From IMG/VR virus record IMGVR_UViG_3300005607_000418, positions 1-47,948 of that record: a DNA stretch of 47,948 bases. The stretch is one strand, 5' to 3'. The notes under the pieces are model-generated. The model had not been told where the DNA came from and did no database searches. It saw only the letters and a program-made list of their open reading frames with translations. Position numbers and translations under genes: made by a program. Position 1 is the stretch's first letter. Every line of letters starts with the position of its first letter. Shown piece by piece: positions 1 through 12,547 of the stretch. This stretch comes from a virus.

Positions 1-963
1 GTGCAACAACTCTCGCTGTTTCCCCGCACGGACGCTTTGGAGCCGCTGTACGCCACGCTCCAGGCCTTGGAGCGCGGGCAGGTGGCCCGCACTACCCTCG
101 CCGGCTACGCGCACGACTGGAGGGCCTTCTGCGCCTTCTGTGAGGGCCTCCGCCGGCCGTCGCTGCCGGCCCACGCGGACACCCTGAGCCTGTTCCTTGC
201 GGACCAGATCCGCCAAGGCAAGCGGGCGAACACCGTCAACCGGCAAGCCGCCGCGGTGGCCTGGCAGCACCGCCAGCAGGGCTTTCCCTCTCCGCTCACC
301 GCTGTCGTGCGGCAAGCACTGGCCGGCGCGCGGCGCCTGGACTGCGGGCCGCTCCACCAGATGCGCCCCTTGAGCGTGGCGCAGATCCGGCAGATCGCCC
401 GCGGGCTGGACCGCGCGGGCACCTCTGCGGCCTTGCGCGATCGGGCTCTGCTCACGCTGGGCTTCGCTTCGGCCCTCCGGCGCGCCAACCTGGCCGCCCT
501 GGCCCTCGCCGACGTGCGCTTCTGCGCCCAGGGGCTGACCATTCAGGTGCACCGCGAGAAACAGGACCAGGCCGGACACGGCCGCCTGATCGCCGTGCCC
601 TTCGGCCGGCACGCGCCAAGCTGCCCGGTGCGCGCGCTGCGCGCCTGGATCGCGCGCCGCGGCTCGGCCGCCGGCCCACTGTTTACCCGCCTGGATCCGG
701 CCCGGAATTCCGAGGTGCAGCCGCTGAGCGTCGGCGCCGTCTACACGATCGTGAAACGCGCCGTAGCGCGCATCGGGCTGGATGCCCGCCTGTACGGGCC
801 GCATTCCCTGCGCGCCGGCCTGATCTCGGCCGCCGGGCAGGCAGGGGTGAACCCGCTGGTGATTGCCTGCCAGAGCGGCCACCGCTCGCTCAACAGCCTG
901 CAGGACTACTACCGCCCGGTGGATCTGTTCCGCGCCAACGCCTGCGCACAGATCGGCCTGTAG
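1..963 (+). CDS. Tyrosine recombinase (phage integrase)
   Basis: This is a tyrosine recombinase of the phage integrase/XerC-XerD family, expected to catalyse site-specific integration and excision of the element. The N-terminal SAM-like core-binding domain spans about residues 15-110, with TTLAGYAHDWRAFCAFC and the ANTVNRQAAAV helix. The catalytic domain spans about 120-320. Visible active-site residues are R160 (SALRRANL), K187 (REKQDQ), H268 and R271 (HSLRAG), H294 (GHRSL) and the nucleophile Y303 in LQDYYRP, nine residues after H294 as is usual. The GTG start is the very first base of the window, so its ribosome site and a possible longer N-terminus cannot be judged. At 320 aa it has the normal family length. 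Being at the end of the element beside a structured intergenic region, it probably lies next to attP. Confidence 0.93.
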   Translation: MQQLSLFPRTDALEPLYATLQALERGQVARTTLAGYAHDWRAFCAFCEGLRRPSLPAHADTLSLFLADQIRQGKRANTVNRQAAAVAWQHRQQGFPSPLTAVVRQALAGARRLDCGPLHQMRPLSVAQIRQIARGLDRAGTSAALRDRALLTLGFASALRRANLAALALADVRFCAQGLTIQVHREKQDQAGHGRLIAVPFGRHAPSCPVRALRAWIARRGSAAGPLFTRLDPARNSEVQPLSVGAVYTIVKRAVARIGLDARLYGPHSLRAGLISAAGQAGVNPLVIACQSGHRSLNSLQDYYRPVDLFRANACAQIGL

Positions 964-1523
964 GCGGCAGAGATCGCGTGACACAGCGCCGACTCCCGGC
1001 TGGGCGCCTGCGCCCTGCCCGTGCTGTTGGCCCGCTTGCATGTCTGGCTGAACCCTTGCCCCGCTTAGGACGGGGTGTTGTGGGGAGCGGCCGGTCCTAA
1101 GAGCGCCGAGGTTGGCGCACCCGGCCGCGGGCCCCACAATTTCCTGCTGACTGTTGCAGAACCTTACAGCCGTCGCCGCAAGATTCCAGCCAGCGCAAAA
1201 AGTGTACCATAGCGCGCGGCACAGAGCCAGGATTCGTGGTACTGTAGTCAGCGCTGGACTAGCCGTTTTTATTGCGGTTGCGCGCAACTGCCTCCTTTCT
1301 CTCGGAGAGCGCGTGGACCTGAGCGGCTGGACGGGGGGGGGCGGCGCCACATAGGTGGGCGGCGCGAGCCTGTTCAGTTGGCGACTGGGTGGCAACGGCG
1401 CGCATCTTATGGGTCGTCCTCTCTGAAAACCTGCCTGAAATGACCTTCGGTTTCGGCGTCCATTGTATCTATTTGCCAGGACCACAGGCACGCATTCCCT
1501 GCGAATCAGTTACGATAAATCCC
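964..1523. other. Intergenic region after integrase
   Basis: About 560 bases with no convincing gene. The only longer reading frame (from 1154) has no ribosome site and low-complexity composition. The region holds a conspicuous hairpin cluster at 1059-1139, described separately, and a short palindrome TTGCGCGCAA near 1275. No good sigma70 promoter was found by eye for the zinc finger gene at 1524. The sequence TACGATAAAT, 8 bases before that start codon, is a weak -10 candidate. Its place beside the integrase makes this the most likely site of attP, but a single copy cannot show core boundaries. Confidence 0.4.
1059..1139. other. Structured inverted-repeat element, possible kissing-loop RNA or att region
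   Basis: Three nested inverted repeats can be read. Hairpin A pairs CCCCG (1059-1063) with CGGGG (1071-1075). Stem B pairs TTGTGGGG (1078-1085) with CCCCACAA (1132-1139) and continues GGCCGG (1089-1094) with CCGGCC (1121-1126). Hairpin C pairs GCGCC (1103-1107) with GGCGC (1114-1118). In addition CTTAGGAC (1064-1071, mostly the loop of hairpin A) is the exact complement of GTCCTAAG (1094-1101, the single-stranded side of stem B), so the loops could kiss. There is no T tract, so it is not a simple terminator. It may be a structured RNA, or paired integrase arm/core sites beside the integrase gene. Confidence 0.45.
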
Positions 1524-1916
1524 ATGAGCAGCACCCGAAGCACGACCAGAAAAGGGAGAATTATCGCCGGCGCCGCGCCCCGCGCGGCTAAATCGCAACC
1601 GAATTACCCCTGCCCGGATTGCGGGGAGGTCTTCGCCACCCCGCAAGCCCGCTACGGGCACCGCTCCATGAAGCACCGCACCACCGCGGCGTCGGGTTTC
1701 CCCGAGTTTGTGGCGGGGCTGCGCCAGACCGCGGACCAGACCCTGGCACAACTGCGCCAGTATGTGAACAACATCGACCAGGCCCTGACTAACTCCACGG
1801 AGCTGAGCCAGCAGCGCCACATGGCCGAGGCCTTGGTGCAGACTTACGACGCGCTGGTGCGCACCCTCGGCGGCGAGCGCGCCATGGCGGCCGGCGGGGG
1901 TGCCGGCGGCGTCTAA
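1524..1916 (+). CDS. Small C2H2 zinc finger protein
   Basis: 130-aa protein. Residues 28-52 form a single classical C2H2 finger: C30, C33, F37, H46 and H51 in the spacing C-x2-C-x12-H-x4-H, with the sequence PCPDCGEVF before and GHRSMKHR after. The N-terminal 25 residues are basic (RSTTRKGR). Residues about 60-120 are helical and polar, suited to dimerisation or protein contacts, and the tail is Gly/Ala rich. A nucleic-acid-binding role is likely from the finger, but the target is unknown. The frame is open further upstream to 1389; the ATG at 1524 is chosen because the upstream part has no protein-like composition. It heads the plus-strand operon that runs to about 3.8 kb, so it could be its regulator; that is inference. 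Confidence 0.72.
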   Translation: MSSTRSTTRKGRIIAGAAPRAAKSQPNYPCPDCGEVFATPQARYGHRSMKHRTTAASGFPEFVAGLRQTADQTLAQLRQYVNNIDQALTNSTELSQQRHMAEALVQTYDALVRTLGGERAMAAGGGAGGV

Positions 1917-1935
1917 GGGATGCGGAGGGCACACC

Positions 1936-2190
1936 ATGCGTCGTCTGGCATGGCTGCTGGTGTGCGCCTCCGCTGGCCTGGGGGCGGCCCGCGTGCTGTA
2001 CTGGCTCTGGCCGCGGGCGCCCCTCTGGTTGGCCACGCTGGAGGCGCTGGGCGCCGGCTACCTGGCGGCGTCCCTCGGGCACCGCTGGGAGGAGCAGCGC
2101 CGCGAGCGGCAGCGCAACGCGGAACTGCGCCGGGTAATCCAGATGCGCGTGCATGAGCGCCCTAGTTGGGGCGGCTGGCACGGCGGCTAA
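1936..2190 (+). CDS. Small membrane protein, unknown function
   Basis: 84-aa protein with an N-terminal signal-anchor (MRRLAWLLVCASAGLGAARV), a second hydrophobic stretch (PLWLATLEALGAGYLAASLG) and a highly charged Arg/Glu-rich tail (RWEEQRRERQRNAELRRV). The predicted layout is two membrane segments with a cytoplasmic charged helix. The start ATG at 1936 has a ribosome site GGAGGG seven bases upstream. It lies 19 bases after the zinc finger gene and 10 bases before the next gene, whose ribosome site overlaps its stop codon. Holin-like or superinfection-exclusion functions are possible for such small phage membrane proteins, but nothing in the sequence decides this. Confidence 0.6.
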   Translation: MRRLAWLLVCASAGLGAARVLYWLWPRAPLWLATLEALGAGYLAASLGHRWEEQRRERQRNAELRRVIQMRVHERPSWGGWHGG

Positions 2191-2200
2191 AGGAGGCTGC

Positions 2201-2765
2201 ATGGCTTCAACGAAAGTGGGCGGCGAGGGGACCTTCGACGCCCAGGCGCACGGCGTCATCAACACCAATTTCGCCGCGCTGGATGCCAGCGCGGCAGACC
2301 TGGACGCGCGCGTGGCCGCGCTGGAAGCCTACGGGCACCTGCTGGTGGCTTCCGTGACGCTCAGCGCGGAGGATCTCCTGGCGCTGAACGATACGCCGGT
2401 GGTGCTGGTGGCGGCAGCCCCAGCCAACTGCGTGAATGTGTTGGAGGGCGCCGTGCTGGACTACCAGCCGGGCGAGACGGCCTACACCATCGGCGACGCC
2501 ACCAACCTGACCATCAACTACAAGGCGGATGCCTCTGGCGCCGCGGTGACGGCCGCCTTGTCGGTGACGGGCCTGCTCGACCAGGCCACGGAGCAGATCC
2601 GCCACCTGAAGCCGCTGGCCGATACGCTGACGCTGGCCACCGCCGCGGGCGGCGCCCTGGCGCTCAGCCCTGGCGCTCACGCTCGCCGGCGCGGATGTCG
2701 CGGACGGCGATGGCACGCTGTTGGTGCTGGTGTGGTATCGCCAGTTCAGCCTGGTGGCGTCATGA
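2201..2765 (+). pseudogene. Phage fibre/decoration-like protein broken by a 13-bp tandem duplication
   Basis: The start ATG at 2201 has a strong ribosome site (AAAGGAGG). The N-terminal part (STKVGGEGTFDAQAHGVINT, then LDARVAALEAYGHLL) has a short helix like trimeric phage appendages. The middle (VTLSAEDLLALNDTPVVLV ... YTIGDATNLTINYK) resembles the beta-sandwich found in phage head or tail decoration proteins. At 2654-2679 the 13-mer GCCCTGGCGCTCA occurs twice in tandem; 13 is not a multiple of 3, so the frame shifts. Removing one copy gives ALALTLAGADVADGDGTL, then VLVWYRQFSLVAS and a TGA at 2763-2765 that overlaps the ATG of the next gene, as expected of this operon. As written, the frame instead runs on through low-quality sequence into the downstream gene (289 codons from the upstream GTG/ATG to 3022). 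It may be inactive, a phase-variable state or a sequencing error. Confidence 0.7.
2654..2679 (+). repeat. Perfect 13-bp tandem duplication
   Basis: Two adjacent identical copies of GCCCTGGCGCTCA (2654-2666 and 2667-2679). Deleting one restores the reading frame of the fibre-like gene and its TGA/ATG overlap with the following gene, so the duplication is very likely recent or reversible. Confidence 0.9.
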
Positions 2766-3022
2766 CTTCCACGGTAGACTTCATACGCGCTGCAGAGCTG
2801 ACTCTGGAAGTAGCCGAGGCCATAGACGACGCCTTCGCGTACCATCCGTGGGACCCGGAGCAGACCAGCCACGGCGTTGAGGTGCGGAAGGCTTTGGCGC
2901 AGGCCGTGAAGGTGATCGTGGCGCATGTGCCGCCCTGCCCGGATCGCTCCACGGCCATCCGCAAGTTGCGGGAGGCGCGCATGGACTGTAACAGCGCCAT
3001 CACGCACCGGGGGCGGTTCTGA
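2762..3022 (+). CDS. Acb2/Tad1-like small protein, candidate cyclic-nucleotide sponge
   Basis: 86-aa all-helical protein. It shows the pattern of the Acb2/Tad1 hairpin family of phage proteins: FAYHPWDPEQ near residue 27, then EVRKALAQAVKVIVAHVPPC (Arg then aliphatic helix ending in CP), then RSTAIRKLREARMDCNSAI, the equivalent of the family's leucine-rich helix ending in a WANAAIA-like motif. Characterised Acb2 and Tad1 proteins bind signalling nucleotides made by CBASS and Thoeris and so block these defences. The assignment is from remembered family pattern, not a search. The ATG at 2762 overlaps the restored TGA of the upstream gene, and the TGA at 3020-3022 overlaps the next ATG, so translation is coupled. 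Because of the duplication upstream, the same frame is also read as a fusion. Confidence 0.62.
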   Translation: MTSTVDFIRAAELTLEVAEAIDDAFAYHPWDPEQTSHGVEVRKALAQAVKVIVAHVPPCPDRSTAIRKLREARMDCNSAITHRGRF

Positions 3023-3138
3023 TGCCCGCGCCTGCCCCGTCTCCGCCGCCGCGCAAGCCGCCAGAGCGCGCCCGCCAGGCGCAGCGCGAGGCGGACGCCA
3101 ACCTACACGAGCGGTTCCCCGTGACGAGGCGCGCATGA
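3022..3138 (+). CDS. 38-aa proline- and arginine-rich peptide
   Basis: A short ORF joined to its neighbours on both sides: its ATG at 3022 overlaps the preceding stop (TGATG), and its own TGA at 3136-3138 overlaps the ATG of the next gene (ATGA). The product starts MPAPAPSPPPRKPPERARQ and continues with a charged helix. Its job may be only translational coupling, or it may be a small basic phage peptide. No family recognised. Confidence 0.5.
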   Translation: MPAPAPSPPPRKPPERARQAQREADANLHERFPVTRRA

Positions 3139-3773
3139 GACTGCTACTGCCGCTCTGGCTGGCCTCCGCGGCGCTGGCCGCCAACGTCACCCTCACGCTC
3201 ACCGCGCCTACCACCGCCACCGCGCCGGGGGCCGCCGTGGCTGTGCCCGTGACACTCACCAGCGTGGCCGGCTACGAGCCCGCCGGGCTACTGTTCACGG
3301 TCACCTGGAGCGCCGCCGATCTCAGCGCCGTGAGCTTCGCCCTGGCCACCGGCATCAGCAAAACCGGCTGGTGCAATCCCAGCGCCGGCAAACTGGTGTG
3401 CGCCATCGCCGGGCTGAACCTGACCAAGATGGCCAACGGTACGCTGGGCACGCTCACCGCCACCGTGGCGGCCACCGCGGGAGTGGCGACCACCACGCTC
3501 ACACTCGGGCCGGTCTCGGCCGGCGCGCCCAATGCCGCGCAACTCGGCGGCGCGGGCGCCAGCGTGGCCGTGCCCATCGTGAGTAAGTGCGACCTGACGG
3601 GCGACGGCAAGATTGACGACGCGGACCTGGCCGCCTCCGCGCAGCAGGCCATCGGCGCGGCAGCCTGCGGCTCCGCGGATCTGGACGCCGATGGCGCCTG
3701 CTCGGTGATGGACCTGCTGCACATCCCCTTGGCGGCTCAGGGAGGGGCCTGCACCCTGGCAAACCCTCCTTAG
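3135..3773 (+). CDS. Secreted cohesin-like/dockerin-like protein
   Basis: 212-aa protein. Residues 1-15 form a signal peptide (MRLLLPLWLASAALA) with an AxA cleavage site. Residues about 16-150 form a Thr/Ala/Val-rich beta domain of cohesin type: GAAVAVPVTLTSVAGYEPAG, LLFTVTW, GTLGTLTATV. Residues 152-206 form a type-I dockerin-like module with two calcium-loop repeats, DLTGDGKIDDAD (153-164) and DLDADGACSVMD (182-193), separated by a short helix. Cysteines flank the second half. In cellulosomes these modules bind each other between proteins; having both in one small secreted protein suggests self-assembly or a surface-bound factor. The ATG at 3135 was chosen over a frame open to 2925 because the signal peptide begins there and it overlaps the previous stop (ATGA). 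It is unusual cargo for a phage and could be a host-derived accessory gene. Confidence 0.72.
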   Translation: MRLLLPLWLASAALAANVTLTLTAPTTATAPGAAVAVPVTLTSVAGYEPAGLLFTVTWSAADLSAVSFALATGISKTGWCNPSAGKLVCAIAGLNLTKMANGTLGTLTATVAATAGVATTTLTLGPVSAGAPNAAQLGGAGASVAVPIVSKCDLTGDGKIDDADLAASAQQAIGAAACGSADLDADGACSVMDLLHIPLAAQGGACTLANPP

Positions 3774-3880
3774 TGCTGCCGCCGGCGCTGGAAGAGTTCC
3801 TGCGCGGGCTGCTGACCACGCCGGCGCCCGACTCCATCGCCTGCAACTTCGTCGCGTGCCCGGCCACCCGCGCGCGATAG
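3773..3880 (+). CDS. Possible 35-aa peptide at operon end
   Basis: GTG start overlapping the stop of the cohesin/dockerin gene (TAGTG). Product about 35 aa beginning MLPPALEEFLRGLLTTPAPD with two later cysteines. The stop overlap is the only support, and no ribosome site at normal distance is seen. Confidence 0.3.
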   Translation: MLPPALEEFLRGLLTTPAPDSIACNFVACPATRAR

Positions 3881-3953
3881 ACTGGAGGGCGAAAGGAGGG
3901 CCGTCCAGGGAAACGGGCCGCCTGCGCCGCGGTCTATGCCGGGGCGCAGGCAC

Positions 3954-3985
3954 AAAAAAAGCGCCTCCCCGTTGCAAGAAGGCGC
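3954..3985 (-). terminator. Rho-independent terminator (minus strand)
   Basis: On the minus strand GCGCCT (3985-3980) pairs with AGGCGC (3966-3961) and is followed by seven T (3960-3954). It lies just after the minus-strand gene ending at 4018. A second dyad on the same stretch, CCTGCGCC (3921-3928) with GGCGCAGG (3943-3950), may add structure. Confidence 0.75.
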
Positions 3986-4017
3986 GGACGGTCGATTCGG
4001 ATTGGATGGGTATCGCC

Positions 4018-4197
4018 TCATTCTATCCCGGCCCGGCGGATGGTGAGCACGCCCAGGCCGATTGCCAGGTACAGGCGCAGGCCCATGCGGAAGTCGCGCT
4101 CGGCTTCGGCCTGCTCGCGCGTGGCGTAGCGCCCGATCAGCATTTCGCGGCCCTGGTAGGTCTCCCGCAATTCCCACGGTAGGCTAGGATCATGCAC
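4018..4197 (-). CDS. Small protein with C-terminal membrane helix
   Basis: 59-aa protein starting at a GTG (4197). The N-terminal part is polar and helical (LPWELRETYQGREMLIGRY, then ATREQAEAERDFRMGLR), and the C-terminal end is a single hydrophobic segment (LYLAIGLGVLTIRR). A minus-strand terminator follows 33 bases after its stop, which supports it as transcribed. The start codon shares the six bases ATGCAC (4192-4197) with the start codon of the divergent gene at 4192. No strong ribosome site is visible, and no family is recognised. Confidence 0.5.
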   Translation of the reverse strand: MHDPSLPWELRETYQGREMLIGRYATREQAEAERDFRMGLRLYLAIGLGVLTIRRAGIE

Positions 4198-4431
4198 CGC
4201 GCGTATCGTATCATCCGCGGCTGCGCCGCGCCCGTCGCGGGAGGCTGCGGCGGCTGGCTGTTCGGCGAGTACTTGGATCCGCGGCTGCGGGGGCCGTGGC
4301 GGTTGCTGCCGGCGCTGCTGAGTTTGCTGCTGCTGGCCTGGGTGTACCGCGAGATGCGCTGGCTGCACCGCGAAAAAGAAAAGCTCGATCGTTTCCTGAT
4401 GGACGAGCGGCGCAACGTCCGGTGGCGGTGA
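4192..4431 (+). CDS. Small membrane protein, unknown function
   Basis: 79-aa protein. After a basic N-terminus (MHRAYRIIRG) comes a glycine-rich patch (VAGGCGGWLFGEY), a clear transmembrane helix (RLLPALLSLLLLAWVYREM) and a charged C-terminal helix (HREKEKLDRFLMDERR). The stop codon overlaps the ATG of the next gene (TGATG at 4429-4433), which argues that this frame is real. Its first six bases overlap head-to-head with the minus-strand gene 4018-4197. The ribosome site is weak. Function unknown. Confidence 0.5.
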   Translation: MHRAYRIIRGCAAPVAGGCGGWLFGEYLDPRLRGPWRLLPALLSLLLLAWVYREMRWLHREKEKLDRFLMDERRNVRWR

Positions 4432-4646
4432 TGCAAGCGCAGGTGCGTCTCTACCGCTTCTACAACTACGCGGCCAACCGCGGCCAGGGCCGCTACGGCG
4501 AACCTTTCGCCTTGTGTGATCGCTGCGTGGAGCGCCAGCCGGTGCCCGCGCACTGCCAGCTCTACCGCCTGGCGGATCAGGCCCTCATGCCCTGCCACAA
4601 GTGCGGCGCGCGCAACGTGCAGGCTGCCAGCGCCCCCGCCGGCTAA
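4431..4646 (+). CDS. Small zinc-ribbon-like protein
   Basis: 71-aa protein with two CxxC knuckles, CDRC and CHKC, about 30 residues apart, and one more cysteine (AHCQLY) between them, as in small zinc ribbons. The N-terminal MQAQVRLYRFYNYAANRGQG is basic and aromatic. The ATG overlaps the upstream stop (TGATG). The TAA at 4644-4646 overlaps by three bases the stop of the convergent regulator gene. Likely a nucleic-acid or protein-binding accessory factor; no specific family recognised. Confidence 0.6.
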   Translation: MQAQVRLYRFYNYAANRGQGRYGEPFALCDRCVERQPVPAHCQLYRLADQALMPCHKCGARNVQAASAPAG

Positions 4647-5095
4647 AACTGGTCCAGCTCCTCGCGCCGGAAGTAGTAGCGCCCCTCGCGGTAGCGCCCG
4701 ATGGTGCCCGCGCGGCAGGCGGCTTTGAGTTCCTCCAGGATGGCCGCCGGCAGCGGATGCAGATAGGCCTCCATCTCGGAGAGCGAGAGCCACTGGCGTT
4801 CGTAGTAGGGCTGCGGCTGGGGCGTGTGGCTGGCGGGCGGCGCCTGCGGCGCTTCCAGCAGCTTGGGCTGCGCGGCCACCGCCCGCGCGATGTGGTGGCG
4901 GGCCGCCTCCAGATCCTTGCGGCGCCAGAGCGTTTCCGGTTTGCGGCCCTCCGCGGGACGCTGCCGGCGTGGCCAGCGCCGCTCCCGCGCCAGCCGCTCC
5001 AGGTGCTTAAGGCTGAGTCCCGTATACTCAACCCCTTCCTCCTTGGTGAGCCAATCGGCGCGCGCTTGTGCTTTGGCTTGTTGGGTTTGCGGCAT
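4643..5095 (-). CDS. Double winged-HTH DNA-binding protein (excisionase/MerR-like regulator)
   Basis: 150-aa protein with two DNA-binding units. The first, residues about 14-60, reads WLTKEEGVEYTGLSLKHLER, then a wing-like basic segment (RRWPRRQRPAEGRKPETLWR) and RKDLEAARHH. This is the pattern of Xis/MerR-type winged helix domains, in which an HTH helix is followed by a positioned Trp/Arg. A Pro/Gln-rich linker follows, then a second HTH of similar style (LSLSEMEAYLHPLPAAILEE ... GRYREGRYYFRREELDQF), which ends the protein. Tandem wHTH proteins in phages act as excisionases or repressors. The ATG at 5095 is preceded six bases upstream by TATACT, a good -10, so the transcript may be leaderless; a second ATG lies at 5110. 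An inverted repeat at 5112-5138 lies just upstream and could be its own operator. Confidence 0.68.
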   Translation of the reverse strand: MPQTQQAKAQARADWLTKEEGVEYTGLSLKHLERLARERRWPRRQRPAEGRKPETLWRRKDLEAARHHIARAVAAQPKLLEAPQAPPASHTPQPQPYYERQWLSLSEMEAYLHPLPAAILEELKAACRAGTIGRYREGRYYFRREELDQF

Positions 5096-5111
5096 GATTG
5101 GAGTATACATC

Positions 5112-5138
5112 GGATCGGCGCAAGGGGCGCTCCGATCC
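5112..5138. promoter_or_regulatory. Inverted repeat upstream of wHTH regulator
   Basis: GGATCGGCGC (5112-5121) faces GCGCTCCGATCC (5127-5138) across a 5-base spacer, with a two-base bulge. It lies 17 bases upstream of the regulator start at 5095. The 8-mer GAGTATAC (5101-5108) next to it recurs inverted inside the gene near 5022. It is a candidate operator for autoregulation; no binding data. Confidence 0.4.
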
Positions 5139-5162
5139 AATGCGCGACTTCTGCAGAATCTC

Positions 5163-5198
5163 AGTGAAAAGTGTCCGGTACTCCCCGGACTTTTCACT
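5163..5198. terminator. Hairpin copy 1 (terminator-like)
   Basis: AGTGAAAAGTGTCCGG (5163-5178) pairs with CCGGACTTTTCACT (5185-5198) with two bulged bases. The right half is part of the 42-bp direct repeat. It lies upstream of the regulator gene 4643-5095 and insulates it from the minus operon above. Confidence 0.6.
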
Positions 5199-5291
5199 AG
5201 CAGCCCTTCCTGGGTAGCCAGCGCGCGGCTACTTTGCCGCTGCCCAAAAGTCCGGTACTCCCCGGACTTTTCACTAGCAGCCCTTCCTGGG
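5173..5291. repeat. 42-bp perfect direct repeat (5173-5214 and 5250-5291)
   Basis: The same 42 bases, beginning GTCCGGTACTCCCCGGAC and ending CCCTTCCTGGG, occur at 5173-5214 and 5250-5291, a 77-bp offset. Each copy contains a terminator half and the last codons (PRKGC, stop) of a tiny basic peptide read on the minus strand. The first copy is therefore a relic of a duplicated gene end. Confidence 0.9.
5246..5271. terminator. Bidirectional Rho-independent terminator (copy 2)
   Basis: AAAAGTCCGG (5246-5255) and CCGGACTTTT (5262-5271) form a perfect 10-bp stem with a 6-base loop and a T run in both directions. On the minus strand it directly follows the stop of the 19-aa peptide gene (5274), closing that operon. 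Confidence 0.8.
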
Positions 5292-5333
5292 CATCTTGCC
5301 GGCGGGCTTCTTGGGCGGTGCTTTCTTGGCCAT
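5274..5333 (-). CDS. 19-aa basic peptide
   Basis: ATG at 5333, product MAKKAPPKKPAGKMPRKGC. Tiny Lys/Pro-rich peptides of this style are common in phage genomes. It starts 20 bases after the stop of the Tat-like zinc-ribbon gene and ends 3 bases before a terminator. The last codons are duplicated at 5199-5214. Support is composition and position only. Confidence 0.4.
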   Translation of the reverse strand: MAKKAPPKKPAGKMPRKGC

Positions 5334-5353
5334 GCGGCCAGTGTACCGCAGCT

Positions 5354-5617
5354 TCAGCCCGCCGGCGCGGCGGCCTCCGCGGCCATCACATTGTAGAGCG
5401 TGCCGCAGGAGGCGCACACGAAGATGCGCGTGTGCGTGAAGATGGCCGCGCGGTACACGCCATCCGCGTCCGCCAGGGTCAGCGGCGTGCCCGGCCAGTC
5501 GCCCGGGGTGCGGCACACCGGGCAGACCGGCGTGAGCACCCAGGTGGTGGTGGCTGGGCCAGTTTGCGCCGCGGCGGGCGCGCCGGCCAGCGCGGCCCAA
5601 AAGCGGCGCCGCGTCAT
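5354..5617 (-). CDS. Tat-like signal zinc-ribbon protein
   Basis: 87-aa protein. The N-terminus MTRRRFWAALAGAPAAAQ matches a twin-arginine signal (T-R-R-x-F followed by a short Ala-rich hydrophobic stretch and AxA). The rest has two CxxC pairs, CPVC near residue 32 and CASC near residue 68, separated by a strand-rich segment (GVYRAAIFTHTRIFVCASC), giving a zinc-ribbon or rubredoxin-like knuckle. The ATG at 5617 overlaps the stop of the upstream frame (ATGA). Related N-termini occur in two other small proteins of this window (6715-7020 and 44265-44510). Function unknown; export with bound metal is possible. Confidence 0.62.
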   Translation of the reverse strand: MTRRRFWAALAGAPAAAQTGPATTTWVLTPVCPVCRTPGDWPGTPLTLADADGVYRAAIFTHTRIFVCASCGTLYNVMAAEAAAPAG

Positions 5618-5831
5618 GGCTGCCTCCGCGTGAGCACGCGGTAGCGCCCGGGCGCGTCGCAGGCCACGGCGGGCAGCGGCGAGCGCGGCTCGGCGGCCGG
5701 TTCCAGTCCCACACTCGCGCCTGGTCGAACCGCAGGCGATCGTTGAAGCGCTGGTTCTCCGCGCTGCGAGCTGCGCGCGCGCGCAGCCGCCTCAGCATGC
5801 GGGCATGCCGCCGCTTGTTAGGATGGGTCAT
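5614..5831 (-). pseudogene. Small basic protein, probably frameshifted
   Basis: The frame from ATG 5831 (GAGG two bases upstream) reads MTHPNKRRHARMLRRLRARA ... RLRFDQARV and is convincingly basic and helical. After about residue 40 that frame becomes Arg/Gly-rich noise through the next gene. Another frame takes over at the GTGTGG near 5710 with GLEPAAEPRSPLPAVACD, then RYRVLTRRQP and a TGA at 5614-5616. That stop overlaps the ATG of the downstream gene in the ATGA manner used throughout the element. A two-base change in the GTGTGG run would join the two into one protein of about 72 aa. Either the gene is broken, slips during translation, or the sequence has an indel error. Confidence 0.42.
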
Positions 5832-5854
5832 ACCTCAATATGGCCGAAGCATCT

Positions 5855-6157
5855 TTACTGCCGGTTGCACTTGGCGCAGATCACCTGGGCGTGGTCCCCG
5901 GCGCGCTCCCGCAACTCCTGTCCCCCCGCGAGAGGACCAAAGACCCGCAGCAGCTCGTCTCTCTGCATTAAGCGATGGCGGTAGGGCCGTGCCTGGTCGC
6001 GGTGCCTGGCGGGTATCTCCATCACCAATGCCTGGCCGCCCGGGTTGAGCCCGCGGCGGATGGCCTCCTCCAGCGCGCCGCCGAAGCCCCCGGCGGATTC
6101 CACGATCACCGCGCCGGCGAAATGATCCTGCTCGTCCACAAACGAGATCCAGTACAT
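5855..6157 (-). CDS. Conserved-looking hypothetical protein, first gene of minus operon
   Basis: 100-aa protein starting MYWISFVDEQDHFAGAVIVE, followed by a Gly-rich helix start (SAGGFGGALEEAIRRGLNPG), a beta segment (GGQALVMEIP) and a charged C-terminus ending VICAKCNRQ with a CxxC. The ATG at 6157 has GGGGAG eight bases upstream, better than the ATG at 6163. A longer frame extends to 6694 but its upstream part is the mirror of the plus-strand gene 6197-6718. Phage proteins that begin with a Phe/Asp-rich strand and bind nucleotides look similar, but no family is claimed. It lies back-to-back with the plus gene starting at 6197, only 39 bases away. Confidence 0.58.
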   Translation of the reverse strand: MYWISFVDEQDHFAGAVIVESAGGFGGALEEAIRRGLNPGGQALVMEIPARHRDQARPYRHRLMQRDELLRVFGPLAGGQELRERAGDHAQVICAKCNRQ

Positions 6158-6196
6158 CGCCATACTCCCCAGCCTAAACTGAAAAAGGAGTCGCAC

Positions 6197-6718
6197 ATGA
6201 CCGATGGAGTACTCGAAGGCCTGGCCCGGCAGGCCGCCAACATCGTGCGCACCGAGTTGCACCTCCATGGCTGCTTCGAGAGCATCCTGGTGGGCATCTC
6301 CCACCAGGGCGAAGCGCTCTACCGCATGCACTCCATCGAGCGGCTCATTCGCAACTTGGCGGGGCCGCATTGGGTGGAAAACTCGGACGCGAAAGAGTGT
6401 CTGTACTCCACCATCCGCATCGCGCACGCCTCGGCTCCCGCCTGGGCGCCGCGGCCGGGCGCCTACATCCTGGCCGGAACCGGGCGCGCGCGAGAGAGGG
6501 ACGGCGATCGGATCACGGAGCAGCATGAAGCGGTGATCTACGCCCTGGTCCAGACCCCCACACGCTGCTGCATCCGCGTCGAGCCGCTGGACGGCGCCGC
6601 GCCCAGCACGCGCTTTCACCCCACCAGCGAACTGGACGGCGCGCAAATAATCTTCCGCCCGCTCACCGACGAGGAGCGCGAGACGGCGCGCCACCTGAAC
6701 CGCCGCGAGGTAACATGA
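6197..6718 (+). CDS. Hypothetical phage protein
   Basis: 173-aa protein starting MTDGVLEGLARQAANIVRTE with an excellent ribosome site (AAAGGAG, eight bases upstream). The N-terminal half is helical (HGCFESILVGISHQGEALYR, HSIERLIRNLAGPHWVENS). The centre is mixed alpha/beta (CLYSTIRIAHASAP, GAYILAGTGRARERDGDR), then an acidic helix (ITEQHEAVIYALVQTPTRC) and a final strand-rich part. No signal peptide or membrane segment is seen. Its stop overlaps the ATG of the next gene (ATGA at 6715-6718), so the two are coupled. Not recognised. Confidence 0.66.
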   Translation: MTDGVLEGLARQAANIVRTELHLHGCFESILVGISHQGEALYRMHSIERLIRNLAGPHWVENSDAKECLYSTIRIAHASAPAWAPRPGAYILAGTGRARERDGDRITEQHEAVIYALVQTPTRCCIRVEPLDGAAPSTRFHPTSELDGAQIIFRPLTDEERETARHLNRREVT

Positions 6719-7020
6719 CTCGCCGCGCTTTTCTCGCCGCCCTGGCCGCGGCGATCGGCTACGACCCGGAGCGCCGGCTTTGGGTGCCCGGGCGCAAGCT
6801 GATCTCGATTCCGCCGCCGGTCTGCCTGCCGGCGCCGCGCGGCAACCAGTTCCTCACGGTAGAGCAGATCAGCAAAATGACCTTGGAGGTTCTGGAGCGC
6901 CACCTGGTCTTCGCGCGGATGCAGCGCGAGTACAACCGCCTGTTCACCAGCGTGGGTGAGGTGATCGTCGCTCGACCGCAGGGCTTAACCATCGAAGGCA
7001 TCCTGCGGAATGCACGCTAG
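6715..7020 (+). CDS. Small protein with twin-arginine-like N-terminus
   Basis: 101-aa protein starting MTRRAFLAALAAAIGYDPER, then RLWVPGRKLISIPPP. The T-R-R-x-F-L motif and Ala-rich stretch match a Tat signal, and the LWVPGxKxIxIP segment recurs in hypothetical phage proteins of this kind as far as I recall. The C-terminal half is a helix (VEQISKMTLEVLERHLVFAR ... YNRLFTSVGEVIVARPQG). Coupled by ATGA to the preceding gene. A GC-rich hairpin (7053-7080) follows its stop. It may be exported or membrane-associated; function unknown. Confidence 0.6.
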   Translation: MTRRAFLAALAAAIGYDPERRLWVPGRKLISIPPPVCLPAPRGNQFLTVEQISKMTLEVLERHLVFARMQREYNRLFTSVGEVIVARPQGLTIEGILRNAR

Positions 7021-7052
7021 AATATGGCAACGGAATCGGCTTTGAGTTTTGC

Positions 7053-7080
7053 GGGGGCTCGCCGCCAGGCGCGAGCCCCC
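7053..7080 (+). terminator. GC-rich hairpin after 6715-7020 gene
   Basis: GGGGGCTCGC (7053-7062) and GCGAGCCCCC (7071-7080) form a perfect 10-bp stem with an 8-base loop. It is 33 bases after the plus-strand stop. Only a weak T-rich tail (CGAATTCTT) follows, so its strength as a terminator is uncertain. Confidence 0.5.
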
Positions 7081-7187
7081 CGAATTCTTCCAGGCGCTCA
7101 CGGGTGTCAACCGGACGGCGCCGCGGCGGCCCCGCCGCAGACGCCAGAAACGGAGCCTAAACACCACAAAAATCAACACTTAGACAC

Positions 7188-7223
7188 AAAAACCCTGCGC
7201 AAAACTTCAGTTATGCGCAGGGT
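7188..7223 (-). terminator. Rho-independent terminator of the recombinase operon
   Basis: On the minus strand ACCCTGCGCA pairs perfectly with TGCGCAGGGT (7223-7214 and 7201-7192) over a 12-base loop and is followed by a T run. It lies 115 bases after the stop of the serine recombinase gene. Confidence 0.8.
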
Positions 7224-7337
7224 CAAACTTGGTTGACAAAGGCACCTGTTTGCAACGCCGAAAACGCCCCTGGAAATGGGGTTTTCCGCAGGGGGTTTCC
7301 GGTTTCGCCCGCCGCGAGCGATCAAGAGAGGGGAGCT

Positions 7338-7913
7338 TTACGCGGCCAGCGCATCGCGCACCGTCGAGACCGGCACGCCCAAGCGCTTCGAGATGGCGCC
7401 CCAGCCCAGCCCGGCCTGGCGCAGCTCGAGGGCTTCATCGCGGCGGAACACCCGCCGCGGGCGGCCGTGCGCCGCGCCGCGGCGCTTGGCGTTCTCCAGC
7501 CCGGCCTTCACGCGCTCGCGGATGATCTCGCGCTCGAATTCGGCCACGGCCGCCAGGATGTGCAGCAGCAGGCGCGAGGTGGGATTCGCCTGGTCCGTGT
7601 CGATCGCCTGCGTGGTGGCGATGAACCGCACGCCGTAGCTGTCCAGGGCCTGCAACTGTTCCACCAGGTGCAGCATGCTTCGGCCGAAGCGGTCCAGCTT
7701 CCACACCAGGATGCCGTCGCAGCGGTGCTCACTGGCATCCCGCATCAGGCGGTCCAGCTCCGGGCGGTGGCGCTTGGCGCCGCTCCAGCCGGTATCCACA
7801 TACTCGCCGGCGACCTGCCAGCCACGGCGGGCGGCGTATTCGCGCAGCTCGGCAAGCTGCATCTCACAGTGTTGGTCCGTGGTGGACACACGGGCGTATA
7901 AGGCTACTTTCAT
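7338..7913 (-). CDS. Serine recombinase (resolvase/invertase family)
   Basis: 191-aa recombinase of the small serine resolvase/invertase type. The catalytic domain opens with MKVALYARVSTTDQ, placing R8 and the nucleophile S10 as expected. The conserved basic patch KLDRFGRS (72-79) holds the arginines that activate the phosphate, preceded by the dimer-face motif DTGWSGAKRHRPELDRLM. The long E helix (LLLHILAAVAEFEREIIRER) and TGRPR-like hinge (AHGRPRRVF) follow. The C-terminal HTH is complete (AISKRLGVPVSTVRDAL). Length is typical (about 185-200 aa). Last gene of a five-gene minus operon with a terminator after it. It could invert a segment, resolve multimers or control the element; no paired recombination sites were identified. 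Confidence 0.93.
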   Translation of the reverse strand: MKVALYARVSTTDQHCEMQLAELREYAARRGWQVAGEYVDTGWSGAKRHRPELDRLMRDASEHRCDGILVWKLDRFGRSMLHLVEQLQALDSYGVRFIATTQAIDTDQANPTSRLLLHILAAVAEFEREIIRERVKAGLENAKRRGAAHGRPRRVFRRDEALELRQAGLGWGAISKRLGVPVSTVRDALAA

Positions 7914-7920
7914 AGAGGTT

Positions 7921-8133
7921 TCACCAGCGGCGCCGTACCGACTCGATACAGCCGATGGCAGCCGCGCCGAGCACCAGGAGACTCACCGCATGTCGATAGC
8001 TCCAGTACCCACGGTGGTAGTGGTCCCAAATGCCGGCGATGGTAAAGGTTGGATTCCAGACCAGGACGGCCAACAGCACAATCAGGAACGCGAGCACCGC
8101 GCGCACCTGAACCCAGCGGAGATTGCTCATCAC
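7921..8133 (-). CDS. Small membrane protein, two helices
   Basis: 70-aa protein. A hydrophobic helix (VRAVLAFLIVLLAVLVWNP) is followed by a short loop (GIWDHYHRGYWSYR) and a second helix (HAVSLLVLGAAAIGCIESV) with a basic end. Two ATG codons are adjacent at the start; the second gives 69 aa. It sits 7 bases before the recombinase gene and 6 bases after the coiled-coil gene. Function unknown. Confidence 0.6.
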   Translation of the reverse strand: MMSNLRWVQVRAVLAFLIVLLAVLVWNPTFTIAGIWDHYHRGYWSYRHAVSLLVLGAAAIGCIESVRRRW

Positions 8134-8139
8134 TTTCTC

Positions 8140-8379
8140 TTAGTGGCCGTTTGATCCTCGGCCGCGTAGAATCAAATCTTCCAGCCTGTCCAGCTTCTCG
8201 GTGATGGATTGCATCGCAGCTTCATGCTGCTGCAACCATTCCCGATGTCGGGCCGTGGCCTGCTCGTTGGCTGCGATCCACTCCAGGTGTTCCTGCAGCC
8301 GTTGCTCGTTGCGCAGCGTAACGGCCGTGGTCACGGTGAGGGATTCCCGAAGGTCTCGAATCATCTCTTCCAGGGTCAT
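8140..8379 (-). CDS. Coiled-coil protein, unknown function
   Basis: 79-aa protein, almost entirely helical with heptad-like spacing: MTLEEMIRDLRESLTVTT, LRNEQRLQEHLEWI, RHREWLQQHEAAMQSITEK, then LDRLEDLILRGR. This suggests a parallel coiled coil like small phage lysis regulators or structural chaperones. The ATG at 8379 has GGAGA upstream inside the end of the previous gene. The longer open frame to 8619 is rejected because it overlaps the gene before it and begins with low-complexity sequence. Confidence 0.62.
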   Translation of the reverse strand: MTLEEMIRDLRESLTVTTAVTLRNEQRLQEHLEWIAANEQATARHREWLQQHEAAMQSITEKLDRLEDLILRGRGSNGH

Positions 8380-8381
8380 CT

Positions 8382-8579
8382 TCAGTTCTCCAACGCCTCG
8401 CCTAGAATCTGCACTCCCAAGTGCAAAGGCCAATACCACCACCAGTCGAAGCCGTGCCACCGGAAAACCAGCGCAGCGCCCACCAACACCAACGCCACCA
8501 GACCAAGCTCTCGCAAGTCGCGGAGTTGGTCCTGGCGTTCGGCGGCCCGCACCGAGGCCATCCATTCTTCCCGGGTCAT
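8382..8579 (-). CDS. Small membrane protein
   Basis: 65-aa protein. A charged N-terminal helix (MTREEWMASVRAAERQDQLR) is followed by a transmembrane helix (LGLVALVLVGAALVFRW) and an aromatic segment (DWWWYWPLHLGVQILGEAL) that would sit at the membrane surface. The ATG at 8579 overlaps the stop of the preceding gene (ATGA at 8579-8576) and has AAAAAGGG upstream, so it is preferred over the ATG at 8594. It ends two bases before the next gene. Function unknown. Confidence 0.62.
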   Translation of the reverse strand: MTREEWMASVRAAERQDQLRDLRELGLVALVLVGAALVFRWHGFDWWWYWPLHLGVQILGEALEN

Positions 8580-8722
8580 CCCTTTTTCGCCCATCTTGCT
8601 GCGGCTGCTTTTGCCGCAATCTCCTTCCGGCGCTTGGCGCTGAGCTTACGAGCGCGGGCCTTACCGCCCGCCTTGCCGAGTGCCACCACGTCGATTGTCA
8701 CCAGCTTCCGCTTTTCCGCCAT
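8576..8722 (-). CDS. Small Lys/Arg-rich GGKARA...ARWAKKG protein
   Basis: 48-aa basic protein: MAEKRKLVTIDVVALGKAGG followed by KARARKLSAKRRKEIAAKAA and AARWAKKG. The GGKARA...LS...R.EIA.KAA.ARWAKKG pattern is widespread as a small protein, often annotated as histone-like or hypothetical, in GC-rich bacteria and their mobile elements. It is likely to contact nucleic acid by charge. It is the first gene of the minus operon that ends in the recombinase, and faces the divergent early operon across a 125-base control region, so it could be an early regulator. Confidence 0.68.
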   Translation of the reverse strand: MAEKRKLVTIDVVALGKAGGKARARKLSAKRRKEIAAKAAAARWAKKG

Positions 8723-8733
8723 ACCGATGAATA

Positions 8734-8750
8734 GCTTAGCACGCCTAGCA
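8734..8750. promoter_or_regulatory. Putative operator O1
   Basis: GCTTAGCACGCCTAGCA, an imperfect copy (13 of 17 bases) of the operator at 8778-8794. Its position 44 bp upstream, about four helical turns, puts both on the same face of the DNA. Confidence 0.5.
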
Positions 8751-8770
8751 AGGTGCTTGCCACGGTACGC

Positions 8771-8800
8771 TTGACATGCTTAGCGCGTTAAGCATAGAAT
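8771..8800 (+). promoter_or_regulatory. Sigma70-type promoter for the early operon
   Basis: TTGACA (8771-8776) matches the -35 consensus, and TAGAAT (8795-8800) follows after an 18-bp spacer as -10. Transcription would start near 8807 and the first gene starts at 8848 with AAGGAG at 8837-8842. The spacer itself is the palindromic operator. Confidence 0.8.
8777..8794. promoter_or_regulatory. Putative operator O2 inside promoter spacer
   Basis: TGCTTAGCGCGTTAAGCA is a near-perfect palindrome with arms TGCTTA/TAAGCA that exactly fills the spacer between -35 and -10. A repressor bound here would block RNA polymerase. The protein that binds it is not known; the tandem wHTH protein (4643-5095) and the basic protein (8576-8722) are candidates. 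Confidence 0.6.
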
Positions 8801-8847
8801 AAGGTCGGACATATAGCCGCGAGGCTCTAAAGCGCGAAGGAGAAACG

Positions 8848-9126
8848 ATGTCTTCCATGTGGTCGGCCACCTCCGATCTGGAGTACTACGAGCCGAACCA
8901 AACCCCCGAAATCGAGCCCATCGAAGATGAGCCCGAGGAGTGCCCGGCGCCGGCCGCGGACTACTACGCTCTGCTCAAGGCGCTCCAAATCATCTCCGCC
9001 GCGAAGCTGGCAGTGGGCCGCGAGGACGGCCCGCAGGTGTGCAGCCCCGCGTGGCGGCTGCTGGCTCACACGGCGGATTACCTGGACCGCGCCGCGACCC
9101 TGGCCCTGCGCGGCGGGGAGGCCTAA
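8848..9126 (+). CDS. Early hypothetical protein, acidic N-terminus
   Basis: 92-aa protein, first gene after the early promoter. Residues 9-35 are very acidic and proline-rich (LEYYEPNQTPEIEPIEDEPE), like a DNA-mimic or disordered tail. The rest is helical (YYALLKALQIISAAKLAVGR ... LLAHTADYLDRAATLALRGG). The start ATG at 8848 has a good ribosome site. The gene ends three bases before the next GTG start. Function unknown. Confidence 0.68.
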   Translation: MSSMWSATSDLEYYEPNQTPEIEPIEDEPEECPAPAADYYALLKALQIISAAKLAVGREDGPQVCSPAWRLLAHTADYLDRAATLALRGGEA

Positions 9127-9129
9127 GCC

Positions 9130-9792
9130 GTGAGCGACAAGATCACCTTCCCCACCAACGTCCCGGTGCCTCTGGCCCTCCAGTTCCTGGAGGGCAAGGA
9201 GGTTGCCTCGCAATTCGGCGGCAATCAGCACCTGTTCAGCACTACCGATGGACGCATCTTCTTTGTGTCCGAGACGGTGGGCAACATCTTGACGGCGCAG
9301 CTTACGAAGCTGCGCATCCAGAAAGGCGAACCTATCGAGATCATCAAGGCCGAAGTGCCCACCGGCAACGGCCGCAAGTCCATTCAATGGTTGGTCAACA
9401 AGGTGGGTTTCGCCCCCGGCGAGCAGCCGGACGGCACGCTGGCGGTAGACAAGCCCGGCGCGGGTGGTGAGGCACCCGCGCCGGTGGCGCCTCGGGCCAC
9501 CGAGACGCCCATCAACACAGCCACCGTGATCGCTACCCATGGTAACAAGCCCAACGGCAACGGCGTGGCCAACGGCAAAGCCAACGGCCACGGCCACGCG
9601 CCTACGCCCGAACTGCATCAGGGCTGGGCGCAGTTCCTGCTGGCGCAGACCAATGCGCTGATCGACGTGTACGCCTGCGCGCTGGCGCACGCCGGCCAGT
9701 ACGGCAACCAGATCAAGCCCGAGGACGTGCGTTCGATCCTGCTCTCGGCCTTTATCAACGTCACCAAGAACGGAGGCATTAATGTCGCGTAG
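9130..9792 (+). CDS. Phage early protein next to nuclease, unknown function (recombination-associated?)
   Basis: 220-aa protein starting with GTG at 9130. The N-terminal 75 residues form a compact beta-rich unit (FPTNVPVPLALQFLEGKEVA, FGGNQHLFSTTDGRIFFVSE, LTKLRIQKGEPIEIIKAEV) that resembles a small OB-like or recombination-partner domain. A Pro/Ala linker and a Gly/Asn/Lys repeat (KPNGNGVANGKANGHGH) follow. The C-terminus is a helix pair (LLAQTNALIDVYACALAHAG, DVRSILLSAFINVTKN). It overlaps the PD-(D/E)XK nuclease gene by 11 bases, and as far as I recall this pairing recurs in related phages. A single-strand-binding or annealing partner role is inference. Confidence 0.6.
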   Translation: MSDKITFPTNVPVPLALQFLEGKEVASQFGGNQHLFSTTDGRIFFVSETVGNILTAQLTKLRIQKGEPIEIIKAEVPTGNGRKSIQWLVNKVGFAPGEQPDGTLAVDKPGAGGEAPAPVAPRATETPINTATVIATHGNKPNGNGVANGKANGHGHAPTPELHQGWAQFLLAQTNALIDVYACALAHAGQYGNQIKPEDVRSILLSAFINVTKNGGINVA

Positions 9793-10687
9793 CTTGCGCT
9801 TGCCCGATTCGCTGGCCCGCCGCGCGGGCGAGTTCACCGCCGCCGCGCTGGCCATCCTGCATCGCTGGCATCGTCATCACCAGGAGGAGGAGGCGCCCGC
9901 CGCGGCGCCCGCTCCTGCTCCACAGAACGACCTGGGCGCGTTGCTCTCGCCGTCCCAGGTGCGCACGTACCTGGATTGCCCCTTCAAGTGGTGGGCGAAG
10001 TACGGCCTGGGCCTGCCGGATCCGCCCAACGGCTCCTTCGTCCGCGGGCGCGTGGTGCATCGCCTCGCGGAGATGTACTACCGCGCCCGGCTGGCTGGGC
10101 AAGCCCCGGATGTGGACGCTCTGCCCTTCGAGGAGACCTGGGACCTGGCGGCCGCGCAAGCGGCCTTCGGCGCCGGCGAGGACGTGGATCTGCTCAAGCG
10201 GCAGGCGGCCGCGCTCACGCGAATGTATTTGGATCAGATCGCCGCCGAGGTTCAGCCGGCCGCCGTGGAAACGCCCGTCGCGGGCGCCATCGCGGGCGTC
10301 GCGGTGCGCGGCATCATCGACGTGTTGGATGTGCACGGGCGCATCATCGACCTGAAGACCGCCGCCCGCACGCCCGCGGGCGTGGCCGCGGATTACGCCT
10401 TCCAGGTGGCCACCTACCGGCAACTGGAGCCGCGCGCCTCGGGCACCGTGCAACTGGCCACTCTGGTGGCCACCAAGACGCCCAAGATCGTGACGCAGAC
10501 CTACACCGTGCAGCCGGCGGATCTGCGCCTCACCGAGACCCTGTACCCGCTGGTGCGCGAGGGCATCCGCAACGGCCTGTATCTGCCGAATCGCGGCAGT
10601 AACCTCTGCTCGCGGAAGCACTGCAACTTCGCCACGGCCTGCGAAGCCGAGTTCGGCGGCTGCGTGAAAGGACAGGCCGAAGAATGA
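9782..10687 (+). CDS. Cas4/AddB-type PD-(D/E)XK nuclease with Fe-S cysteines
   Basis: 301-aa nuclease of the RecB/Cas4/AddB group, expected to cut or resect DNA ends. After a charged, low-complexity N-terminus, the domain begins at residue 55 (LSPSQVRTYLDCPFKWWAKY), with C66 as the first cluster cysteine. Motif H93 follows in FVRGRVVHRL. The catalytic core is GIIDVLD (D180) and IIDLKT (D190, K192), then the QhxxY motif QVATYR (Q208, Y212). The C-terminal cysteines C276, C281 and C287 (NLCSRKHCNFATAC) complete the usual 4Fe-4S pattern of one N-terminal and three C-terminal cysteines, with C294 extra. It likely works in phage recombination or replication with the neighbouring 9130 gene. Confidence 0.88.
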   Translation: MSRSLRLPDSLARRAGEFTAAALAILHRWHRHHQEEEAPAAAPAPAPQNDLGALLSPSQVRTYLDCPFKWWAKYGLGLPDPPNGSFVRGRVVHRLAEMYYRARLAGQAPDVDALPFEETWDLAAAQAAFGAGEDVDLLKRQAAALTRMYLDQIAAEVQPAAVETPVAGAIAGVAVRGIIDVLDVHGRIIDLKTAARTPAGVAADYAFQVATYRQLEPRASGTVQLATLVATKTPKIVTQTYTVQPADLRLTETLYPLVREGIRNGLYLPNRGSNLCSRKHCNFATACEAEFGGCVKGQAEE

Positions 10688-10986
10688 GACCTCCCGCCTA
10701 CACCGGAGAACCCCACACCTGCCGTTGGTGCGGGCGCAAACTCTACCGCACCTACGGCCTGCGGGCTCTGGCGCGCGATCTGAAGGCGCATGCCAAGCTC
10801 TACAGCAACAACGGCGAAACCATCCAACGTGAGGATGCCGCCGTGCGGCGCCGCTTCCTCGAATCCGCCGGCCAGTACGGCCCTTACGGAGACGGCCACT
10901 TTTGCTCACTCACCTGCGGCTATGCCTACGGCGTGCATATCGCGGGCATCGCCGAGGCCAAGCCCCCGAAAGGCAGGCAACCATGA
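10684..10986 (+). CDS. Small zinc-finger protein in nuclease operon
   Basis: 100-aa protein with four cysteines arranged as a zinc knuckle: CRWC (13-16) with a basic GRKLYRTYG after it, and FCSLTC near residue 74-79. Between them is a charged helix (RALARDLKAHAKLYS ... REDAAVRRRFLESAG). The ATG overlaps the nuclease stop (ATGA), and its own stop overlaps the next ATG. It might assist the nuclease in DNA binding; function not established. Confidence 0.63.
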   Translation: MRPPAYTGEPHTCRWCGRKLYRTYGLRALARDLKAHAKLYSNNGETIQREDAAVRRRFLESAGQYGPYGDGHFCSLTCGYAYGVHIAGIAEAKPPKGRQP

Positions 10987-11069
10987 GCCCCCGGGCGCGG
11001 GCTATGCTGGTGGCTACCGGCCTGGTCCTGCTCTCCGGCCTGCTGACCCTGGCCGTTTCTCGCCTCTAA
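10983..11069 (+). CDS. 28-aa single-span membrane peptide
   Basis: ATG at 10983 overlaps the stop of the preceding gene (ATGA). Product MSPRARAMLVATGLVLLSG, then LLTLAVSRL: one transmembrane helix with a basic N-terminus. A terminator follows 17 bases later. Last gene of the early operon; function unknown. Confidence 0.55.
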   Translation: MSPRARAMLVATGLVLLSGLLTLAVSRL

Positions 11070-11086
11070 CTGAACTGTTTTCCTGC

Positions 11087-11115
11087 GGCCCGGCGGTTTC
11101 CCGCCGGGCCTTTTT
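11087..11115 (+). terminator. Strong Rho-independent terminator of early operon
   Basis: GGCCCGGCGG (11087-11096), loop TTTC, and CCGCCGGGCC (11101-11110) form a perfect 10-bp stem followed by TTTTTCTT. It separates the rightward early operon from the leftward late genes ending at 11125. Confidence 0.93.
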
Positions 11116-11124
11116 CTTGTGCCC

Positions 11125-11664
11125 TCAGCCGACCTTCAGGTAGAGCCCGCCGAACGGAATCACGACCTTCTGGAACGAGCCCGTCACCCCGTCCTTACTG
11201 GTGCCCTGGATCACCGTGCCATCCGGCACGCTATCCCCCGGCAACGCCGAGAACCAAGGCCCATCGCCCTGGCGCACCCCGATGCCGCCGGTCTGCGGCT
11301 GGGGCACCGGCAGGCTGTGCGGCGGACACACGTAATCGGTCGGCGTATTCCCGTACACGATCTGCACGGCCGGCTTGTTGGCCTGCATATCCGCCACGGA
11401 GGTAGGCAGCACATGCAGCGTCAACCGCGGCACCAGCGCCGCGGGCAGGTTCTGGCCGCCGCGCGACTGCGCGATCTGGACGGCCTGGACGTAGCCCGGC
11501 CATTGGCTTTCGTAGTCCGCCACGGCCGCGGCGTTGCGCTGCGCAGCCCAGGCCTCGGTAGACGTGACGATGTTGGAGAACGCGCAAGCGGGCGTCGGCT
11601 CGGTGCAGGTCTGCGCCTGCCCGAGGGCCAAACACAATACGAGTGAGAGAAGGAGTTTCTTCAT
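11125..11664 (-). CDS. Secreted protein of unknown function
   Basis: 179-aa protein starting MKKLLLSLVLCLALGQAQTC, a signal peptide with a likely cleavage after AQ. The mature part has cysteines at CTEPTPAC and DYVCPP, a helical region (EAWAAQRNAAAVADYESQW, VQAVQIAQSRGG), and a strand-rich C-terminus (TGSFQKVVIPFGGLYLKVG). The longer frame to 11826 is the mirror of the upstream gene. It is the last gene of the late block and converges on the early terminator. It could be a spanin-like or periplasmic factor, but no spanin signature was recognised. Confidence 0.6.
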   Translation of the reverse strand: MKKLLLSLVLCLALGQAQTCTEPTPACAFSNIVTSTEAWAAQRNAAAVADYESQWPGYVQAVQIAQSRGGQNLPAALVPRLTLHVLPTSVADMQANKPAVQIVYGNTPTDYVCPPHSLPVPQPQTGGIGVRQGDGPWFSALPGDSVPDGTVIQGTSKDGVTGSFQKVVIPFGGLYLKVG

Positions 11665-11684
11665 GGGGATCTTGGGGAGGGGCT

Positions 11685-12469: not shown

Positions 12470-12503
12470 GCGAAAAAGGGGGGATGCTACAACATCAGCC
12501 AGG

Positions 12504-12543: not shown

Positions 12544-12547
12544 GGGG

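Follow-up and report, generated by a model that had tools for sequence, protein, structure and literature searches.

Proteins of the Acb2/Tad1 family serve other phages to capture the nucleotide alarm signals of the bacterial immune response. The Acb2 protomer, whose layout has been described (PMC10419184; PMC12043709), combines a short N-terminal helix with a helical hairpin and contains no β-domain. In the protein of phage T4, Y8 is required for the binding of cyclic dinucleotides, and the base is in stacking contact with F82 (PMC12657218). Tad1 is built from an N-terminal antiparallel β-sheet together with hairpin helices, and conserved loops join these helices in forming its pocket for glycocyclic ADP-ribose (gcADPR) (PMC12043709). 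The references used here for Acb2 are T4 Vs.4 (PDB 7uq2) and the protein of Pseudomonas phage p26 (PDB 8h2j and 8h2x). The present work deals with an 86-amino acid protein, referred to as the hairpin protein, encoded at positions 2762-3022 of the plus strand of a viral DNA of 47,948 nucleotides (IMG/VR record IMGVR_UViG_3300005607_000418), the whole of which is called the window. This protein is very probably homologous to the Acb2/Tad1 fold family, in which it represents a new and divergent clade of a known hairpin superfamily rather than a new kind of protein, and it probably acts as a sponge of the Acb2 type for the cyclic nucleotides of the cyclic oligonucleotide-based antiphage signaling system (CBASS).

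Coding Evidence and Sequence Conservation

The gene at 2762-3022 is real and under purifying selection. Its relatives comprise 21 loci on viral contigs, with 56-76% identity, and a few further members in other acidobacterial genomes. The ratio of nonsynonymous to synonymous substitution rates (dN/dS) towards these relatives ranges from 0.07 to 0.29 for the pairs where it could be computed, and the mismatches fall predominantly in the third codon position (518, vs 245 and 211 at the other two positions). Several frames are open across the region, among them an antisense open reading frame (ORF) of 85 amino acids, which might suggest a chance ORF or a reading of the wrong strand, but the plus-strand frame is picked out by the homologues, the family match, the dN/dS values and the third-position changes, and this explanation is refuted as it stands.

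Translation yields the 86-residue product and the order of residues announced by an earlier sequence-only reading, i.e., F25-x-Y27-H28-P29, Q34, R42, C59-P60, S63, A65, L69, A72, N77 and I80. As a family motif this list holds in part, the order being present but the C59-P60 pair being variable among the relatives. The residues W30, R42, V56-P57, D61-R62, R67-K68, E71-A72-R73-M74-D75, N77-S78-A79 and G84 are invariant, and the C-terminal helix, which carries the motif REARMD(C/A)NSAI, is nearly invariant throughout the clade.

Family Assignment

Among the 24,736 Pfam models scanned, the Acb2_Tad1_hairpin family PF24729 is the sole match of the hairpin protein (E = 4.3e-5, 24.1 bits). The match is significant, but its score falls short of the 27 bits set as the curated cut-off. 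For this reason the protein is not counted among the Pfam-curated members, and its homology rests on linking relatives and on the fold. Seventeen of the 18 family members forming the alignment match PF24729. The hairpin protein also matches phrog_1454 (E = 8.1e-9), a family equally matched by gp101 of Tunturiibacter phage Tunturi_1 and gp210 of Mycobacterium phage ScoobyDoobyDoo and, weakly, by T4 Acb2 (E = 7e-4). T4 Acb2, like the hairpin protein, matches PF24729 as well. Both phage proteins exceed the PF24729 cut-off, with 44.6 bits for gp101 and 53 bits for gp210. A relative encoded in another genome (G080), which reads VDDIFGHHAATQEQLEQIAHVRESAKDMALTIMAQCPPSADRTAALRKLREAMMTANAAI across the matched part, scores 58.8 bits with the clade's own profile and 44.8 bits, thus above the cut-off, with PF24729. 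The G080 protein thus bridges both profiles, and with these links the step from the clade to the family is continuous.

Outside the clade, the proteins nearest in sequence or structure are gp101, gp210 and B2BTN4 of Lactococcus phage 1706. The first two share with the hairpin protein the FxYH loop, the IR pair and the LRE..MTAN..I pattern, but their last helix reads MTANA instead of MDCNS. A direct pairwise comparison of the hairpin protein with Acb2 gives no significant sequence match, and the NCBIfam scan returned no match. Searches of the PDB by sequence were of little help, since a single-sequence phmmer search retrieved talin alone (E = 0.2) and the clade profile retrieved GTP cyclohydrolase 1 first (E = 0.06) and "Acb2 homolog 43" (9ptq) second (E = 0.84), which puts the solved structures out of reach by sequence alone. 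A literature search for an open publication describing 9ptq gave no result.

Predicted Fold

The single-chain AlphaFold model, built from the 18-row family alignment, has a mean predicted local distance difference test (pLDDT) score of 92.8 and consists of a short helix (residues 15-25) followed by two antiparallel helices (32-55 and 60-81). The two-helix antiparallel hairpin characteristic of PF24729 is thus predicted with high pLDDT, and the single helix ahead of it and the absence of any β-strand reproduce the layout of Acb2. In a viral structure library, 15 of the 17 best matches are named Acb2/Tad1 hairpin, the top ones reaching a probability of 1.00, a template modeling (TM) score of about 0.7 and a root mean square deviation of about 1 Å; the best match, B2BTN4 of Lactococcus phage 1706, bears the family name. 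Profile, intermediate sequences and fold all support the membership of the hairpin family put forward by the sequence-only reading.

Structural matches in the PDB include T4 Vs.4 and the Pseudomonas phage Acb2, at E = 2.7, probability 0.60 and TM 0.56 for 7uq2, and at E = 7.0 and TM 0.55 for 8h2x. As judged from the alignment, the weakness of these matches is presumably due to the longer arms of both reference proteins; those of the hairpin protein are about 20 residues shorter in total than those of T4, and it possesses some 15-20 extra residues at the N-terminus. With Tad1 the protein shares, by family definition, the PF24729 hairpin domain, but in the model it is devoid of the N-terminal β-sheet domain, and parts of the gcADPR pocket are missing. 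Owing to the lack of any predicted strand, the hairpin protein is considered Acb2-like. Of the double anti-CBASS/anti-Thoeris activity previously proposed, the CBASS part fits this anatomy but the Thoeris part, with its gcADPR ligand, is unsupported.

Predicted Ligand-Site Positions

As in Acb2, the loop preceding the hairpin contains a tyrosine and the helix after it a basic residue, and both align with their Acb2 counterparts. Y27 (codon 2840-2842, plus strand) aligns with the ligand-binding Y8 of T4 Acb2 (PMC12657218), a column occupied by Tyr in 17 of 18 sequences and by Phe in the remaining one. R42 (codon 2885-2887, plus strand), present in all 18 sequences, aligns with K23 of T4 Acb2 and with K26 of the Pseudomonas phage protein. 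The latter residue is a contact of cyclic GMP-AMP. The conservation of Y27 and R42 concerns two positions of the ligand site as predicted from the alignment.

Proposed Function and Alternative Explanations

By analogy with Acb2, which forms hexamers, protomers made of the short N-terminal helix and the long antiparallel helical hairpin would be expected to assemble, and the assembly to bind cyclic di- and/or trinucleotides in its pockets. The lining of these pockets is predicted to comprise the FxYHxW loop, a conserved element that includes Y27, together with the invariant R42 and with the C-terminal helix and tail, both of them conserved. Effectors of CBASS, or others that respond to cyclic oligonucleotides, would thereby be kept off while the phage infects or the prophage is induced. 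The oligomeric state, the ligand and the role against host defence are all inferred, and a Thoeris specificity is given a low probability.

Several observations weigh against a CBASS-type sponge. The score remains under the Pfam cut-off, and the matches to the T4 Vs.4/Acb2 structures are weak (E 2.7-8.5, TM about 0.55). The column of T4 F82 is occupied by T81, which is not aromatic, so that F82 finds no aromatic counterpart in the hairpin protein; T81 is adjoined by H82, a conserved position that is H or F in the relatives, and in the column of F82 the residue of the Pseudomonas phage protein is Ala. The nearly invariant C-terminal helix is stricter than might be expected for a protein engaged in an arms race. 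To our knowledge, the homologues that match well, including gp101, gp210 and B2BTN4, have no experimentally tested function. Finally, a search of the host genome for SMODS cyclases gave no match; no search aimed at Thoeris or type III CRISPR genes was made. A SAVED search gave no match in the host, nor in any control genome, and is thus uninformative. As the phage meets other hosts, a lysogen devoid of CBASS is only a weak argument against an anti-CBASS gene, and SMODS cyclases above the cut-off occur in 14 of 101 genomes of the host family (14%). In one related genome (G084, locus L040), a SMODS cyclase (38.8 bits) occurs alongside a strong PF24729 protein (72 bits).

Part of the same evidence could be read in favor of a diverged hairpin protein that sequesters another immune nucleotide in place of the CBASS signals, e.g., an ADP-ribose derivative of Thoeris or a cyclic oligoadenylate of type III CRISPR. 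The position of the family under the Pfam cut-off, its own C-terminal motif, the lack of a SMODS cyclase in this host and the binding of gcADPR by the Tad1 branch of the superfamily (PMC12043709) agree with such an explanation, but the Tad1-type β-domain, which is part of the gcADPR pocket, is missing, little can be concluded about other hosts from a single lysogen devoid of SMODS, and the host family does possess CBASS synthases. It is accordingly held to be unlikely. A hairpin-fold protein sharing the fold alone and fulfilling a non-immune role, whether as a small structural, regulatory or scaffolding component, seems a little less probable still: no function is assigned to phrog_1454 or its neighbours, a two-helix hairpin is a simple fold, the T4 Acb2 match in the PDB is weak and the C-terminal helix hardly varies, but the Tyr and the basic residue are conserved at positions that match the ligand site, and a distribution over mostly unrelated phages with little common neighbourhood better fits accessory counter-defence than a structural part. 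That the REARMD(C/A)NSAI clade forms a branch of the superfamily with a function of its own, being tuned to an immune nucleotide that neither Acb2 nor Tad1 is known to bind, is more doubtful than either. An Acb2-type sponge directed at CBASS signals remains the preferred explanation.

Prophage and Host Context

The window represents a prophage inserted in a Bryobacteraceae-like chromosome, the host being judged from named relatives to be a Bryobacteraceae-like soil acidobacterium. A tyrosine integrase (1-963, plus strand; phrog_216, E = 7e-19, and phrog_1, E = 6e-16; start codon at G000:C35:7834) marks the left prophage end. To its left lie host genes whose translations, read by eye, resemble a KAS III-like synthase, RimO and PgpA, and beyond the right end comes a CinA-like host gene. 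The 13-bp sequence CAATCTTTATTGA occurs as a direct repeat at C35:7773, at the end of the PgpA-like gene, and at C35:59791; it is plausibly the att core, which gives a prophage of about 52 kb. The terminase, portal, capsid, connector and ejection genes are located on the minus strand and the hairpin gene on the plus strand near the integrase, a usual place for accessory genes. When stretches of the 21 viral loci were compared, only a few had another gene in common with this phage, e.g., L029, which shares both the portal and the hairpin gene, and no gene besides the hairpin gene recurs widely. This recurrence in mostly unrelated phages is as expected for an exchangeable accessory gene. A search for near-identical phage DNA with positions 1-20000 of the window gave no match.

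The genes called between about 1.52 and 3.77 kb are all on the plus strand, so that their description as a first plus-strand operon is fair. The gene upstream of the hairpin gene (2201-2761, plus strand) has no family match and contains a perfect 13-bp tandem duplication, GCCCTGGCGCTCA, with copies at 2654 and 2667 (span 2654-2679). This duplication shifts the upstream frame, which then continues in-frame into the hairpin gene, and an alternative start at 2153 in that frame gives an ORF of 289 amino acids. Past the duplication, the other upstream frame is more protein-like and its TGA overlaps the ATG at 2762 (ATGA). The fused frame may reflect a real mutation or an assembly error. Since the 289-residue ORF is a by-product of the duplication, the ATGA overlap falls at 2762, and several relatives, 82 amino acids in length, start at the corresponding position, 2762 is likely the native start.

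The suggestion that neighbouring small genes might encode further anti-defence proteins found no support, these genes showing a weak zinc finger match, a cohesin-like domain match or no match. The cohesin-like domain (PF00963, E = 4e-4, below cut-off) belongs to a secreted-looking protein (3135-3773, plus strand) with dockerin-like acidic repeats recognized by eye at its C-terminus, an unusual cargo for a phage. A small conserved phage protein without family match (6715-7020, plus strand) starts with a twin-arginine-like signal; related ORFs occur in two loci that also carry the hairpin gene, L010 (near 5057-5581) and L029 (1493-1828), and the motif LWxPGxKLISIP is found in the window and L010 copies.

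On the minus strand, an ORF of 5144 amino acids (12548-27982) contains a 1601-residue piece matching a DarB-like antirestriction protein (phrog_10089, E = 0, 1470 bits), in addition to methyltransferase and helicase parts, and is a candidate for a second, independent anti-defence gene of the same prophage. The minus strand further encodes a serine recombinase/DNA invertase (7338-7913; PF00239, E = 2e-45), besides the tyrosine integrase, and a DNA methyltransferase-like ORF (43100-44221) located between terminase and portal, in which the motif TSPPYYGLRDY was recognized by eye.

Significance

At least one member of the clade escapes the Pfam cut-off now in use. If the function is as inferred, counter-defence of the Acb2 type would extend to a clade of soil (acidobacterial) prophages and viral contigs, the hairpin protein would offer a compact sponge for comparison with T4 Acb2, and cyclic-nucleotide immunity would be indicated as a pressure acting on the phages of Acidobacteriota.
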